Below are positions 36,126-42,926 of a DNA stretch of 64,000 bases, piece by piece (positions within the stretch are counted from its first letter, which is position 1; each line of letters begins with the position of its first letter). Made by a program: the position numbers and the translations under genes. The notes beneath the pieces were generated by a model that was not told the origin of the DNA, did not search any database, and saw only the letters and a list, made by a program, of their open reading frames with translations. Source of the DNA: Sphaerochaeta pleomorpha str. Grapes (GTDB lineage Bacteria; Spirochaetota; Spirochaetia; Sphaerochaetales; Sphaerochaetaceae); the NCBI RefSeq assembly GCF_000236685.1, contig NC_016633.1, positions 1,302,001 through 1,366,000 on the forward strand, given 5' to 3'.

Positions 36126-38246
36126 TCATACAATGGCTTGCAAGCGAATATCGCGGCTACTCGAACCAATGCGCAAGGAAAAACTCCCGTTCCCCCTGAC
36201 GAATTTCCACGCGTTGCTATCATAGTGACAGAAAGCATCTGCAGGGAGGAAAAGCTTCACCTCAGCAGAAGCTCCTGCACCAAGGAATACCTTTTCGAAC
36301 TGCTTCAGTTCCTGCCGGGGTCGAAACACAGCAGGAAGCTCCTCATGGATATAGACCTGTACGGTTTCCTTTCCATCCACCTTACCCGTATTTGTAATAG
36401 TAAACGAAAGGGAAACAGAACCGTCCTGGTGTTTCTCCAGCTGTAGATTAGCATAGGAGAATGTACTGTAGGACAATCCATGACCGAACGGAAAAGCCAC
36501 TTCGATTCCTTCGGTATCGAACAACCGATACCCAACCATGAGGTTTTCACGATACTCCATATCCCAAACAAAGCGCTTGTTTGGATTTCCCTGCCCTCCC
36601 TGGATCCTTCTGATACGAACCGAATCAAAATCATGCGGATAATTGGAAACCGAACGGTAATTTGAAAAATCCTTTGCCATGCTAAAGGGAAGCTTGCCAC
36701 AGGGATTGCAGCGCCCAAACAGGATATCAGCAAGGGCCGGTGCAGTACTGGAACCAAGATAAAAGGCATACAAAACCGATTTTGCACAGGTAATCCACGA
36801 AGTAGTCTCCAGATCACCACCGCCATGGAGGATGACGATAAGGTTAGCATTCACGGAAGCGATACGATGCATCTCATCCGCTTCACCCGAGGGGAGTTGC
36901 CACCGCCTGTCATAGGATTCGCTTTCATAGAAGTGGTCGAATCCAGTGGAGAATATGATTGCGTCGCAGTTTTTCACCTTTTCCCGGTACGCTTTCTTCC
37001 TCCACCATCGTGCAGGCAACAGGACAACCTCCACGCCCTCTTTGAGCATTTGATCGGCAAGATTATCAGGTTGCTGTTGCAGCTGAACCATGGAGGATCC
37101 TCCTCCTGCAGGGATTTGAAAGGCATTGCGACCTCCGACGCAGACAACAAGGCCCTTTTTTTTCTGCAAGGGAAGCAAAGATCCTGTATTTTTAAGCAGG
37201 ACAACCGATTCACTTGCAAGATGCTTTGCCAGGGCAAAATGCTCTGCTGTCCCCACATTATCCCCAGGGACTACCGGCTGTCGATTGAAAAGCCCAGCTT
37301 TTTCATAGGAGGTAAAAATATGGAGCAGTTTTGCATCGATATCGGCCATTGAGACCTTACCTGCAGCAATTTCCTTTTTCAGTTTTTTTGGGTCGAACCA
37401 TTTCGGGCCTGGCATTTCCAGATCGACACCGTTGCAGGCAGCCCCGACTGTCGAATACAGGGAATTCCAGTCAGAGATTACCATTCCGTCATAGCCCCAT
37501 TCATGGCGAAGGATTTCCCCAAGGAGGTAGGGATGCTCACTGCAATAGGTTCCGTTCACAGGGTTATAACTGGTCATCAAACCCAAGACACCTGCTTCAA
37601 CGGCTTTCTTGAAAGGGGGAAGATAGATTTCCCTGAGCGTCCTTTCATCTACGACTGAATTGCATTTATGCCTGTCATATTCGCTGTTGTTGCAGGCAAA
37701 ATGCTTTACGGTTGCAATGACCCCCTGGGACTGGACACCTTGGATATAGCTGGAGGCAACCTCACCTGTAAGGTAGGGGTCTTCCCCGCAATATTCAAAA
37801 TTTCTCCCGCAGGTAGGTAATCGCGCGATATTTACACCAGGACCCAGGAGGACCCCTATTCCCAAAGATTTGCACTCTTGGGCAAGTACTTTTCCAACTT
37901 CTCTCAGCAAAGCCCTATCAAAAGAGGCAGCCATTGCAATGGTCGCAGGAAAATCTGTCACGTTCGTTTTCCACCCTCTCAGGGCCATGGTTGCATCGCT
38001 TGTCCAGACAGGTTTCACCCCAAGCCGCGGAATTCCACGGATACAGAACTCATCAACGCCGCTTATCAGGTTCAGTTTTTCATCCTCAGTCATTTCTGCA
38101 AGGATTCTCTGGGGCAACGGTACAGAAGGTCCAGGTTTCAATACAAGGGACATAGGTTCTGTATCGGTAGGGATATCCCGGGGAGAAAGCATGGCAATCA
38201 TCTTTTTCTGAACCAGTTTCTGTAAAATTCTGTCAAACCAATGCAT
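36126..38246 (-). CDS. GH3 beta-glucosidase
   Basis: This 706-residue glycoside hydrolase family 3 enzyme has no signal peptide, so it is probably cytosolic. The TIM-barrel domain has KHFACNN and the nucleophile Asp in GMVISDWNSL; an alpha/beta-sandwich domain follows. The last 100 residues form a fibronectin-III-like domain (ETVQVYIHEE...). The layout matches BglB-type enzymes acting on beta-linked oligosaccharides. A short N-terminal extension (about 30 residues) precedes the conserved start. AAGGAG is 7 nt before the ATG, and TATAAT lies upstream on the minus strand. Confidence 0.93.
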   Translation of the reverse strand: MHWFDRILQKLVQKKMIAMLSPRDIPTDTEPMSLVLKPGPSVPLPQRILAEMTEDEKLNLISGVDEFCIRGIPRLGVKPVWTSDATMALRGWKTNVTDFPATIAMAASFDRALLREVGKVLAQECKSLGIGVLLGPGVNIARLPTCGRNFEYCGEDPYLTGEVASSYIQGVQSQGVIATVKHFACNNSEYDRHKCNSVVDERTLREIYLPPFKKAVEAGVLGLMTSYNPVNGTYCSEHPYLLGEILRHEWGYDGMVISDWNSLYSTVGAACNGVDLEMPGPKWFDPKKLKKEIAAGKVSMADIDAKLLHIFTSYEKAGLFNRQPVVPGDNVGTAEHFALAKHLASESVVLLKNTGSLLPLQKKKGLVVCVGGRNAFQIPAGGGSSMVQLQQQPDNLADQMLKEGVEVVLLPARWWRKKAYREKVKNCDAIIFSTGFDHFYESESYDRRWQLPSGEADEMHRIASVNANLIVILHGGGDLETTSWITCAKSVLYAFYLGSSTAPALADILFGRCNPCGKLPFSMAKDFSNYRSVSNYPHDFDSVRIRRIQGGQGNPNKRFVWDMEYRENLMVGYRLFDTEGIEVAFPFGHGLSYSTFSYANLQLEKHQDGSVSLSFTITNTGKVDGKETVQVYIHEELPAVFRPRQELKQFEKVFLGAGASAEVKLFLPADAFCHYDSNAWKFVRGNGSFSLRIGSSSRDIRLQAIV

Positions 38247-38327: not shown

Positions 38328-39149
38328 ATGAGCATACGAGTTCTTTTCCTTGGTGAAATTGTCGGGAAACCTGGCATCGCAACCGTTAAAAGTGCGCTGA
38401 GAAAATTGCGCGAAGACAAAAAGATTGACCTGGTCATTGCAAATGGCGAAGGAGCCACCGGAGGTTTTGGCCTCGGGCGCGCCCATTCCATGCAGCTTTT
38501 CAAGCTGGGCATTGACATCCTTACCGGCGGGGAAAAGATCTATTATAAAAAAGACATGGTGGAATTCATTGCCAAGAATCCCAATATACTGAGGCCAGCC
38601 AACTACCCCCAGCAAAATCCGGGACGGGGCGTAAAATACCTCACGGTGAATGAACAGAAAGTCTGTGTCATCAATCTTTTGGGGAACGCAGACTTTCCGA
38701 GAACCCATCTCGGCAACTCCTTCGCCCTGGCCCAGATGCTGGTGGACAAGGCAAGGGAAGACAACCAGATTGTCCTGATTCAATACCATGCCTCCACTAC
38801 AGCAGAAAAAAGCACCATGGGCTATATGCTCGACGGCAAAGCCTCAGCGGTCATCGGTACCCATACGAAGATTTTGAGCGGGGATGCCAGGATACTCAAA
38901 CACCATACGGCCTTTATTACCGATAACGGCCGGTGTGGCAGCCAGACGAGTGTCGGGGGATTTTCCAGCAGCACGGAGATTAACAAGTTCATCACCCAGA
39001 TCCCTGTCCGTTCAAACGAATGCTGGGATGATTTGGAACTTGTAGGGGTTCTCGTTGACGTCGAGAACGATGGAAAGGCCACAGCCATCGAAACAGTCAG
39101 GGTTCAGGTGGAATCACCGGCACAACAAGAGGAAAACGAACATGTATGA
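38328..39149 (+). CDS. YmdB-family metallophosphoesterase-like protein with altered metal site
   Basis: The 273-residue protein aligns along its length with YmdB (TIGR00282), the cAMP phosphodiesterase that affects biofilm and RNase Y in Bacillus. Most metal ligands differ: YmdB D8 is E10, E39 is kept (E41), N40 is G42, N67 is E69, the catalytic H68 is K70, H150 and H175 are kept (H154, H179) and H177 is K181. The fold is probably kept, but hydrolysis as in YmdB is doubtful. The start is set by a promoter 6 nt upstream. It overlaps the RseC-like gene by 8 nt. Confidence 0.82.
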   Translation: MSIRVLFLGEIVGKPGIATVKSALRKLREDKKIDLVIANGEGATGGFGLGRAHSMQLFKLGIDILTGGEKIYYKKDMVEFIAKNPNILRPANYPQQNPGRGVKYLTVNEQKVCVINLLGNADFPRTHLGNSFALAQMLVDKAREDNQIVLIQYHASTTAEKSTMGYMLDGKASAVIGTHTKILSGDARILKHHTAFITDNGRCGSQTSVGGFSSSTEINKFITQIPVRSNECWDDLELVGVLVDVENDGKATAIETVRVQVESPAQQEENEHV

Positions 39150-39558
39150 AACGGTAACCGTTACCAAAGTCATCAATAAAGAAACCATTCAGGTTGCTTG
39201 TGCAAGCAGCGCCTGCAATGGTTGCAAGGGAGAGACCTTCTGCAACAAGAAAGGAAAGGATTTTGAGGCTAACAACAGAAAAGCCTTAGCCCTGGAACCG
39301 GGAATGCAGGTTGAACTGTTCCTCAAACCTTCCAGAACTATCGCGGGAACCCTGATTACCCTGATATTCCCCCTGATGTTGTTCCCCATCGGCTATTATA
39401 TCGCTTCGGCATTGAGCAACTCAGAAATAGTGGGAATGTTTTCAGGATTGGCCGGGATAGGAATCGGTTTTCTCGCTGCCTGGGCATACTTCAGGGCAAA
39501 AAGACACCAGTACCTCCCCCAAGTCGACCATATCGTAGAGGAAGACGGAGAACAATAA
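39142..39558 (+). CDS. RseC/MucC-like membrane protein
   Basis: This is 138 residues from ATG 39142 (GAGG about 9 nt upstream). An N-terminal cysteine cluster (CASSACNGCKGETFCNKKG) is followed by a small beta region and two membrane segments (about 65-87 and 92-112). This is the layout of SoxR-reducing/RseC proteins, which are thought to interact with redox complexes or with the anti-sigma-E system. No rseA/B or rnf genes are in the window. It is translationally coupled to the YmdB-like gene. Confidence 0.8.
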   Translation: MYETVTVTKVINKETIQVACASSACNGCKGETFCNKKGKDFEANNRKALALEPGMQVELFLKPSRTIAGTLITLIFPLMLFPIGYYIASALSNSEIVGMFSGLAGIGIGFLAAWAYFRAKRHQYLPQVDHIVEEDGEQ

Positions 39559-39621: not shown

Positions 39622-40161
39622 ATGGTTAACCGAAGCATTCTTGGCATGGTTCTTGCGCTCCTTTTTCTAGTTTCCTGCTCAGCCGAGCAAGGAACTACAG
39701 CGTACGGGCAAATTGATGCAAAAGCGGATATCCAGCTCTCCAATGCAACATACATCCTGGGAAGGGCTAAAGAGTCCCCCATTACCATACAGGCGGCCTC
39801 CATTTCGATTTACCTGAAAACGGACCAGGCCTTGCTTGAGGGTATCACCTTCGAGCAAAAAGACAGCCAGGGGTCGGTGGACTTGACCGGTTCGGCCCAA
39901 CGGGCAACTGTGAATACTAAAACCTATGATGCCCAGCTCCAGGGAGATATCAAGATCAGTAAAGTCGGGGAAGATTTTTCCATCGAGGCAGAGAACCTGG
40001 TATGGGAAAATGAAAGCCAGATTCTTAAAAGCGACATAGATTCTGCTGTTTTTATTTCCTTCGACAAAGGGAATTCCCTCTCAGGTAACGGTTTTACAGG
40101 AAACCTCAAGGAAGGGACCTACGAGTTCTCCTCCATAGAAGAAGGAGTTCTCAGGCAATGA
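39622..40161 (+). CDS. lptC: LptC-like lipoprotein
   Basis: The 179-residue protein has a lipoprotein signal (LVSC, Cys near residue 19), whereas E. coli LptC keeps a membrane helix. The rest is beta-jellyroll-like (SVDLTGSAQRATVNTKTYDAQLQGDIKIS). Position directly before lptA and lptB supports the call: LptC passes lipopolysaccharide from the LptBFG pump to LptA. Sequence similarity alone is weak. It overlaps lptA by 4 nt (ATGA). Confidence 0.75.
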   Translation: MVNRSILGMVLALLFLVSCSAEQGTTAYGQIDAKADIQLSNATYILGRAKESPITIQAASISIYLKTDQALLEGITFEQKDSQGSVDLTGSAQRATVNTKTYDAQLQGDIKISKVGEDFSIEAENLVWENESQILKSDIDSAVFISFDKGNSLSGNGFTGNLKEGTYEFSSIEEGVLRQ

Positions 40162-40781
40162 AAAAATTCACCTTCCTGCTGACGATGTTAGTTCTCTCTG
40201 CCCTCCCGCTTTTCTGCGAGGATATCTCATTTTCCGGCGGGTATACCCGTATGAACATGCAAGAGGGAAAAGAGGTTATAACCCTGGGTAACAAGGCTTT
40301 GGTTACCGTAGGTTCCCTCACCCTCAAAGCCGACTCCATAGAGCTTTCAGGTGACAATTTCAAGTACGTCAATTGTACGGGCTCTGTTTCCGTAGAGGAC
40401 CCAGAACGGGGGTTTTCCCTTGTTTCCAAGAACCTCTACTACGACCGCACAAAAAAATTAATCATTGTGAACAGCTGGGTCGAACTGCAAGATACCACCA
40501 ACGAAGTTTCGGCCTCCGGGGCATGGCTTGAATTCGACATGGAAAACGGAACGATACGCATGCAGATCCATGTCAGGCTTTTCAACAATACCGATGATGG
40601 CCCTATGGTCTGTAAGGCAGAAACCGTAGAGTTCGACAGGTCCGGACAGACTCTGAGGCTTTTAGGCGATGCAACCATCGAATGGAAAGAAGATACCTAC
40701 CAGGCCCAGGTAATCAGCGTTGACTTGGAAACCAAAGAAATCAAGATGGATGGTTCCATCAGGGGAACGGTCCATGGCTGA
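40158..40781 (+). CDS. lptA: LptA/OstA-like periplasmic protein
   Basis: The 207-residue protein has a signal peptide (about 1-20) and an OstA-type beta-taco region. Repeated segments (VTVGSLTLKADSIELSGDNFKYVNCTGSVSVEDPERGFSL and AETVEFDRSGQTLRLLGDATIEWKE) show the family pattern. It would form the periplasmic bridge for lipopolysaccharide. It overlaps lptC by 4 nt and lptB by 8 nt. Confidence 0.85.
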   Translation: MKKFTFLLTMLVLSALPLFCEDISFSGGYTRMNMQEGKEVITLGNKALVTVGSLTLKADSIELSGDNFKYVNCTGSVSVEDPERGFSLVSKNLYYDRTKKLIIVNSWVELQDTTNEVSASGAWLEFDMENGTIRMQIHVRLFNNTDDGPMVCKAETVEFDRSGQTLRLLGDATIEWKEDTYQAQVISVDLETKEIKMDGSIRGTVHG

Positions 40782-41520
40782 TACGTATAAAAGCATCCTT
40801 GAAATTCAGCACCTTGCAAAATCCTATGGGAAAAAAGAGGTTGTCAAAGATATTTCCTTCTCCATGGAGGCTGGACAGATCATCGGTCTGCTCGGACCCA
40901 ACGGGGCGGGAAAAACAACAACGTTCTTTATGATCGTCGGGTTTTTGAAATCCAAGAGGGGTAAGATTCTCCTTAACGGAGAGGATGTAACCGACCTGCC
41001 TATGTTCCTCCGTTCACAAAAGGGGCTTTCCTATCTCCCCCAGGAACCTTCCATCTTCAGAAAGCTCTCGGTAGAGGAAAACATCCGCCTTGTCGTGGAA
41101 ACCCGTAAGGACCTTACCAAAGCCGAACAGGATCTACGCATTGAACAGCTGCTTGATGAGTTTGGAATCGAAGGTCTGAGAAAACAGAAAGGCTATACGC
41201 TCAGCGGCGGGGAAAGACGGAGAACAGAGATTGCCAGAGCCTTGGGCTGCAACCCCCGCTTCCTGCTTCTGGACGAACCGTTTGCCGGGATTGACCCGAA
41301 AGCTGTCTATGAAATAAAGCTGTTGATCAAAGCTCTGGCTGACAAGGGCATCGGAATCCTCCTCACCGACCATAATGTACGTGACACCCTTTCCATTACC
41401 TCCTGTGCACATATTATCAATGACGGTGCCATCCTCGTTTCCGGGGGAAGGCAGGAGCTCCTTGCAAACAAGATAGCCAGGGATATATATTTTGGTGAAG
41501 ATTTTGGAGATGATTTCTGA
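40774..41520 (+). CDS. lptB: Lipopolysaccharide export ATPase LptB
   Basis: This is 248 residues from ATG 40774. Walker A GPNGAGKTT, signature LSGGERRRTEIARAL, Walker B FLLLDEPFAGIDP and H-loop LLTDHN are all present. The SGGERRR signature and GIDP are LptB-specific. It powers LptFG in extraction of lipopolysaccharide from the inner membrane; no lptF/lptG lies in the window. Its stop overlaps the rpoN start by 1 nt (TGATG). Confidence 0.95.
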   Translation: MADTYKSILEIQHLAKSYGKKEVVKDISFSMEAGQIIGLLGPNGAGKTTTFFMIVGFLKSKRGKILLNGEDVTDLPMFLRSQKGLSYLPQEPSIFRKLSVEENIRLVVETRKDLTKAEQDLRIEQLLDEFGIEGLRKQKGYTLSGGERRRTEIARALGCNPRFLLLDEPFAGIDPKAVYEIKLLIKALADKGIGILLTDHNVRDTLSITSCAHIINDGAILVSGGRQELLANKIARDIYFGEDFGDDF

Positions 41521-42926
41521 TGAATATATCCAACTCCCTATCCCTTGCCCAGAAACAACAGCTGAAACTCAGTCCCCAGCTTTTACAATCCTTTGAGTTG
41601 ATGGCCCTTCCCTTGGCCGAACTCCAAGCACGGATTAAGGCGGAGATTGAGGCAAACCCAGCCCTTGAGCTTCCTGGCATGGGTGAAATTTCCTATGAGA
41701 ACTATGCAGAGAATGCAAGGGTACGCGAGCAAAAAGGCCAGGACGATACCTATTCCGATTCCTCCAGTTATGGAAGCGATGAGGGGGGAAGTTATGATTT
41801 TGAAGCTTCGGATAGGCAACAGAAATTCATGGAAAATGCTCTCAGTACAGAAGAAACACTACAAGAACATCTTTTGAGCCAACTCGGATGTGAACAGTTG
41901 ACTGACCAGGAATATGAGGTAGGGCTTGTCTTCATTACCAATTTCGATGCCAACGGTTTTTTCACACAGGATCCACAATCCCTACTGAAAACCGAACAAT
42001 TGCCCTATAGTGAAAAAGTCTTGGATGTAATCCAGCGCTTCGAGCCTTTAGGGGTCGGGGCCAGAAACTGGAGGGAATCGTTGATCCTTCAGGCAAAAGC
42101 AAAGAAAATCACTGGAAACGACCTTGCAATCCTAACCAGCCTGGTCAACGACAAATTGGAACTGATGAGGGCAAACAAACAACAATTGGTTGCCAAACAA
42201 CTGGGGATTGAGCTAGAGGAACTGGAGAGCATCTATTCGTTTCTCAAGACGTTGACGCCCTACCCGGGGCAGTCCTTCGCCAACGGACCCGAGGCTTTTG
42301 TCATTCCGGACCTCTCCATTCATCAGGTTGAAGGGAATCTGGTGATGAAAATGAATAACTCATCCCTTCCAGACCTTACCATCAATGCCGAATTCGAATC
42401 ATTGGCCCAAGATCTTGGAAACAGCAGGGAAGCCAAGGAAACCCAATCGTATATCCAACACCATATCAAAAGTGCCAACGATTTGATTTTCCAAGTCCGT
42501 ATCAGAAACCAGACGCTCTACAGGGTCGGGGAAATCCTGATGGATTACCAACGGGAATTCTTTTACAATGGACCGCAATATCTGAGGCCTTTGACCCAGA
42601 AAACAGTTGCTGACATCCTGGGAGTCCACGAGACTACCATCAGCCGGATATCCACGGCAAAATATATCGATACCGACTGGGGTATCATCGCCGTGAAAAA
42701 GCTATTCAGCAATGCAGTAGGCGATGAGGGTGAAGAGATTTCCAAAAATGCCGCAAAGGAAACTATCAGGCAGATTATCCAGGAGCACCAGGGCACGAAG
42801 GCCCTTTCAGACCAGAAAATCTCTGACCTGCTCAAGGAACGGGGAATATCAGTTGCAAGGCGAACCGTTGCCAAATACCGGAATGAGTTGAACATCGACC
42901 CTTCGTTTATCCGGGGGACAAACTAG
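41520..42926 (+). CDS. rpoN: RNA polymerase sigma-54 factor
   Basis: The 468-residue protein has region I at the N-terminus (QQLKLSPQLLQSFELMALPL), an acidic Ser/Gly-rich region II (about 65-100), the core-binding domain, the helix-turn-helix (VADILGVHETTISRISTAKY) and the RpoN box ARRTVAKYR near the C-terminus. It directs transcription from -24/-12 promoters with AAA+ activators such as the NtrC protein at 13.5 kb. The lptB-rpoN neighbourhood is conserved in many bacteria. Confidence 0.96.
   Translation: MNISNSLSLAQKQQLKLSPQLLQSFELMALPLAELQARIKAEIEANPALELPGMGEISYENYAENARVREQKGQDDTYSDSSSYGSDEGGSYDFEASDRQQKFMENALSTEETLQEHLLSQLGCEQLTDQEYEVGLVFITNFDANGFFTQDPQSLLKTEQLPYSEKVLDVIQRFEPLGVGARNWRESLILQAKAKKITGNDLAILTSLVNDKLELMRANKQQLVAKQLGIELEELESIYSFLKTLTPYPGQSFANGPEAFVIPDLSIHQVEGNLVMKMNNSSLPDLTINAEFESLAQDLGNSREAKETQSYIQHHIKSANDLIFQVRIRNQTLYRVGEILMDYQREFFYNGPQYLRPLTQKTVADILGVHETTISRISTAKYIDTDWGIIAVKKLFSNAVGDEGEEISKNAAKETIRQIIQEHQGTKALSDQKISDLLKERGISVARRTVAKYRNELNIDPSFIRGTN

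Follow-up and report, generated by a model that had tools for sequence, protein, structure and literature searches.

Sphaerochaeta pleomorpha str. Grapes carries, besides a canonical YmdB, an ancient YmdB paralog from which the binuclear phosphodiesterase site appears to have been lost. Judged from the residues at that site and their conservation, the loss is well supported, and a metal-free core of the paralog is likely. The explanation that we favor, with about even confidence, is an ancient and probably metal-free pseudo-phosphodiesterase that acts by binding, either as a partner of canonical YmdB or as a sensor of a phosphorylated ligand. The gene lies in the 64,000-nucleotide stretch of DNA analyzed here (the window).

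A YmdB-family protein outside the YmdB enzymes

The window protein is a full-length match to PF13277 (6e-86, 288.3 bits against a cut-off of 27, profile positions 1-253 of 253) and misses the curated TIGR00282 cut-off (226.7 versus 254.15 bits, E 3.2e-67). Its only sequence relatives with a solved structure at E 0.001 were Bacillus subtilis YmdB (4b2o) and the entries 1t70, 2cv9 and 1t71 from Deinococcus, Thermus and Mycoplasma. An AF2 model built from 51 sequences had a pLDDT of 92.9 and superposed on 4b2o with a Z score of 38.9 (2.0 Å over 258 residues, 37% identity); the YmdB fold is therefore predicted to be intact. Structural matches of the model ranking below these four YmdB-family entries were mostly calcineurin-like nucleotidases and similar enzymes, and were uninformative on function. 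Homology places the window protein in the YmdB fold family, but the residues tested place it outside the YmdB enzymes.

According to a published comparison of YmdB with the epimerase MslH (PMC10406935), the metal ligands of YmdB are D8, E39, N40, N67, H150, H175 and H177, and the catalytic dyad is H68/D71. Alignment of the window protein with 4b2o was gap-free around every key site. D8, N40, N67, H68 and H177 are replaced by E10, G42, E69, K70 and K181, and E39, H150 and H175 are kept as E41, H154 and H179, exactly as the preliminary description of this DNA had read both sets. Four of the seven metal ligands are replaced, and both dyad residues are gone; the change of the second, D71 to Y73, had been overlooked. 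The gene and its key residues are as follows, with counts taken from 102 non-redundant paralogs (<90% mutual identity) and 41 canonical YmdB rows.

38328..39149, plus strand: YmdB-fold paralog with a rebuilt metal site, 273 residues and stop (PF13277, AF2 model)
38355..38357, plus strand: E10 (YmdB D8, metal ligand); E in 99, D in 2 and Q in 1 of 102 paralogs
38448..38453, plus strand: E41-G42 (YmdB E39-N40), E kept and N lost; position 41 is E in 65, D in 28 and N in 9, and position 42 is N in 1 of 102
38532..38537, plus strand: E69-K70 (YmdB N67-H68); position 69 acidic in 101 of 102, His at position 70 in 0 of 102
38544..38546, plus strand: Y73 (YmdB D71, catalytic dyad partner); Y or F in 88 of 102, Asp in 0 of 102
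38700..38705, plus strand: R125-T126, two-residue insertion relative to canonical YmdB; R125 in 79% of 102 paralogs, gap in at least 90% of 41 canonical rows
38787..38789, plus strand: H154 (YmdB H150), kept; His in 97 of 102
38862..38870, plus strand: H179-T180-K181 (YmdB H175-T176-H177), first His kept and second replaced by Lys/Arg; position 179 is H in 81, G in 18 and N in 3, and position 181 is K or R in 102 of 102, where the rows from the 116-row alignment had been picked by K/R at 181, though all non-canonical rows there had K/R
38931..38933, plus strand: R202 (YmdB M198), newly conserved; R in 88% of 102 paralogs versus 0% of 41 canonical rows

Misalignment as the source of the lost ligands, a possibility that the preliminary description had allowed for, is ruled out, and so is chance. 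There are no gaps near the sites, the predicted structure superposes on 4b2o as given above, and the altered pattern recurs in 64 of 64 paralogs in an alignment of 116 sequences.

The altered site defines a conserved clade

That alignment, from which 8 duplicate loci had been removed beforehand, divides at the eight key positions into 52 rows that read DENNHHHH, copies beside rny included, and 64 rows of the altered type. The 64 paralogs came from searches that used the window protein as query, and 30 of the canonical rows (L003-L032) were best-scoring matches, so that they are biased toward canonical sequences. In a tree of 74 rows with the ligand columns removed, all 39 sampled altered sequences fell on one side of a single branch with 100/100 support. 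The altered clade has two parts, one from the window's class and the other from a different class (families f22, f35 and f48), a breadth that rules out a recent or local oddity. This spread would be explained by duplication before the class split or by transfer at an early stage.

Glu at position 10, an acid at 69 and Lys/Arg at 181 occur together in 98 of the 102 non-redundant paralogs. The substitutions are fixed in the clade, a point that the preliminary description had raised, and the altered copies are conserved as a type of their own. Other positions are looser. Residue 70 is K, C, Q, R, L, Y, S, W, A, N or F, and about a fifth of the clade lacks the equivalents of E39 and/or H175 (E41 and H179). 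The set E/D41, E/D69, H154 and H179 is complete in 80 of the 102, the window protein included; it is broken in the other 22, with 9 state changes on the tree, and 20 of these 22 still hold the E10/acid 69/K-R181 core. A set from genome contigs, which overlaps the 102, had K/R181 in 76 of 76 rows and E10 in 74. It comprised the best 80 of 350 candidates, less 5 loci dropped for a stop codon before residues were counted, and was retrieved by pattern, so it is biased toward H154 and the stretch near T44.

At thirteen positions, a residue that is at least 80% fixed in the paralogs occurs in at most 15% of the 41 canonical sequences. Paralog-specific conserved residues are K21, T44, G50, H53, K59, F123, N130, R202, G210, E217 and S229, and point to gained constraint rather than decay. 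E69 accompanies K181, and D69 accompanies R181, in 90 of 101 sequences (72 + 18 versus 9 + 2; Fisher 2e-11), a pairing expected of two side chains that keep their combined reach, although the link was non-significant once corrected for kinship, there being too few independent pairs. The paralog is under purifying selection. dN/dS was 0.108 for the window gene versus a relative (L063), 0.171 for a Borrelia-like pair and 0.022-0.056 for nine close pairs (0.02-0.17 overall), with dS near saturation in some pairs and two further pairs unusable. Here and below, "Borrelia-like" and "Treponema-like" are labels read from gene order and kinship.

A canonical YmdB in the same genome

The preliminary description had raised the possibility of a canonical second copy in spirochetes, and the window's own genome, a single contig of 3.59 Mb, has one. 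This second PF13277 gene (L001, at C1:2359095) passes the TIGR00282 cut-off with 264.6 bits, encodes a protein of similar length with all eight key positions canonical (DENNHHHH), and lies outside the paralog clade. It directly follows rny (C1:2357545-2359062) and precedes an FtsJ-domain methyltransferase gene. The two family members are not adjacent in the genome, and the window locus is not beside rny. The paralog bears marks of a pseudoenzyme: catalytic residues lost under purifying selection, with a paralog intact by sequence in the same genome.

Matches to the window protein numbered two in 176, three in 12, one in 23 and none in 17 of 228 genomes sampled from the window's class, and several of the three-match genomes reflect split matches. 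Among the 19 single-contig genomes of this sample, 16 had two matches, 3 had none and 0 had one. Over a sample of the phylum, PF13277 was found in 258 of 392 genomes, and many outside the window's class had one copy only.

Several individual loci deserve mention. The canonical ymdB is frameshifted in one single-contig genome (L282, G519:C1:1659200-1661200), through either a sequencing error or a real break. A record titled Candidatus Cloacimonadota (L140) holds a paralog 61% identical to the window protein; the contig is probably mis-binned, since that identity is in line with Sphaerochaeta relatives. In four genomes of one treponeme-like genus (G288, G353, G368 and G542), the copy nearest RseC, probably the paralog, was matched in two pieces, some within one open frame, which suggests that an insertion particular to this lineage precedes the last 70 residues.

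Joint presence and loss of the two copies

Genomes mostly hold both ymdB copies or neither, and a few drafts have one: G521, G538 and G408 have only the paralog, and the canonical gene alone is present in G238 and G360. These drafts speak against a strict dependence of one copy on the other. PF13277 matches occurred in 40 of 118 genomes of the Treponema-like family, of which 38 had two or more matching stretches and 2 had one; the other 78 had none. All 30 genomes tested for RNase Y had it, 14 of them devoid of PF13277 matches, and the RNase Y tree forces at least 2 state changes of the ymdB pair. The pair therefore disappears together while RNase Y stays, which rules out coupling to RNase Y as the cause of joint loss.

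Correlation of tree distances proved non-specific, with a partial r of 0.58 for the ymdB pair and a higher value, 0.71, for RNase Y-RsmH, an unrelated pair used as control. A further control, Era, gave near-zero correlations with everything, perhaps from a wrong reading frame (its match in G130 was split), and was unusable.

Gene neighborhood

The setting given in the preliminary description, coupling to an RseC-like gene with Lpt genes and rpoN following, was borne out, the stop codon of the paralog (39147-39149) lying within an 8-nt overlap with the next gene. The neighbors in the window are:

36126-38246, minus strand: GH3-like beta-glucosidase gene (name by reading), divergent from the paralog with 81 bases between
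39142..39558, plus strand: RseC/MucC-like membrane protein gene, its start overlapping the end of the paralog by 8 nt (PF04246, 1.5e-15)
39622..40161, plus strand: LptC-like gene (PF06835, 1.5e-9)
40158..40781, plus strand: LptA-like gene (PF03968, 1.4e-7)
40774..41520, plus strand: ABC ATPase, LptB-like by position (PF00005, 3e-36)
41520..42926, plus strand: rpoN, sigma-54 (PF04552, PF04963, PF00309)

The 81-base gap holds one sigma-70-like match, on the minus strand, which is no more than expected by chance.

An RseC-like open reading frame directly follows the paralog in 72 of 80 close loci, 78 of which have room for it. Among 40 broader loci, RseC-like genes come next in 17 and LptB lies nearby on the same strand in 13. 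Borrelia-like loci are arranged otherwise. There the paralog is flanked by LspA-like and MurA-like genes (names by reading) with a Nif3-like gene (PF01784) upstream, genes like lptC, lptA and lptB are found some 3-4 kb upstream, and RseC was not found in the loci of this kind that were examined. BB_0471, which we take to be the Borrelia locus name of the paralog, is called hypothetical in a listing. RseC is kept in 84 of the 118 Treponema-like family genomes, many without either ymdB, and so does not follow the presence and loss pattern of the pair. The relevance of the RseC and Lpt neighbors implied by the preliminary description is less well supported: adjacency of RseC is frequent, but RseC persists in many relatives from which the paralog is gone, and the neighbors in Borrelia-like loci differ.

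Discussion

We propose that an ancient YmdB paralog gave up the binuclear metal site together with the His/Asp dyad and retained the whole fold. Lys or Arg at the H177 position, Glu at D8 and Asp or Glu at N67 would, as their conservation suggests, most likely interact as a network of charges inside the protein, with the positive charge formerly given by metal now coming from the Lys/Arg. Such a protein would lack YmdB-type phosphodiesterase activity and would most likely have a binding role instead: forming a mixed oligomer with canonical YmdB, regulating it, or sensing a related phosphorylated ligand. Partnership with canonical YmdB is offered as a hypothesis, favored by the pattern of joint loss and left unconfirmed by the distance test. 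The drafts with a single copy, the many spirochetes outside the window's class with one PF13277 gene, and the separate location of the two genes in the window's genome weigh against it. More tentatively, the two proteins may make up a YmdB system of the spirochete lineage, consisting of an active enzyme encoded beside RNase Y and an ancient pseudo-enzyme in which a fixed Lys/Arg between two acids has replaced the metals; the latter would be a metal-free partner or ligand sensor that controls the enzyme, and both would be lost together in treponemes.

From the replaced ligands, the preliminary description had suggested that either the metal or substrate differs or the role is non-enzymatic. That the replacements are coordinated is borne out, and they have proved ancient and fixed. 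We favor the non-enzymatic branch because E10, acid 69 and K/R181 are virtually invariant, E41 and/or H179 has been lost from roughly one paralog in five, neither dyad residue is left and residue 70 varies. For four-fifths of the clade, the main rival is a mononuclear metalloprotein in which site 2 (E41, E69, H154, H179) holds one ion and K181 replaces the other, and which has a new activity or metal-dependent binding. It draws on the lasso-peptide epimerase MslH, a diverged YmdB-fold relative from which one of the two metals is gone; MslH retains the E/acid-or-N/H/H set for the remaining metal and binds one Ca(II) through residues matching YmdB E39, N67, H150 and H175 (PMC10406935). The window protein has E41, E69, H154 and H179 at these positions and so may itself bind one metal. 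MslH, however, is described there as an enzyme with a His/Asp dyad, whereas the paralog has K70/Y73 in its place and Lys/Arg fixed at the H177 position; the persistence of the charged core in nearly all paralogs with a broken site 2 also speaks against this rival. We regard the mononuclear reading as possible but doubtful.

The remaining alternatives are weaker. A role linked with the RseC-like membrane protein or the LPS-transport operon, rather than with YmdB or RNA metabolism, would account for the overlapping genes in the window and for the recurrence of RseC-like and LptB neighbors, but both ymdB copies are often absent where RseC stays and the Borrelia-like loci have other neighbors, which makes such a function unlikely. 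The complete fold and the retention of E41, H154 and H179 might point to a phosphodiesterase of YmdB type that is still active through a rearranged site; with most ligands and both dyad residues replaced clade-wide, we consider this very improbable. A decaying duplicate or an annotation artifact, for which only the lost residues could be cited, is scarcely credible given class-wide retention and the newly conserved positions, and the dN/dS values rule out a pseudogene.

The paralog differs from B. subtilis YmdB in the replaced ligands and dyad, in the two-residue insertion, in about eleven newly fixed positions and in its location away from rny, and shares with it the whole fold and the equivalents of E39, H150 and H175. 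Its canonical counterpart in the same genome belongs to the same family, is often kept or missing together with it, and differs in its intact site, its place beside rny and its position outside the paralog clade. An analogy, and an analogy only, is offered by prozyme of trypanosomes, whose fold is unrelated to that of YmdB. Prozyme is reported to be a dead paralog of AdoMetDC that is retained along with the active enzyme and activates it by forming a complex (PMC5201418).

A search of the literature on YmdB, TIGR00282, spirochetes, pseudoenzymes and Borrelia loci found no report of the paralog. Automated naming of its genes as metallophosphoesterases is probably misleading. In B. subtilis, YmdB activity is required for control of biofilm formation and motility, and the molecular target is left open (PMC6123443). 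With the target unsettled even in Bacillus, a conserved, naturally altered paralog that often shares the fate of the canonical copy provides a genetic handle on the role of YmdB, also in Borrelia-like genomes, where both copies persist in a chromosome of 0.9 Mb. The paralog would also clearly exemplify how a binuclear metallophosphoesterase site can be rewired as a network of organic charges.
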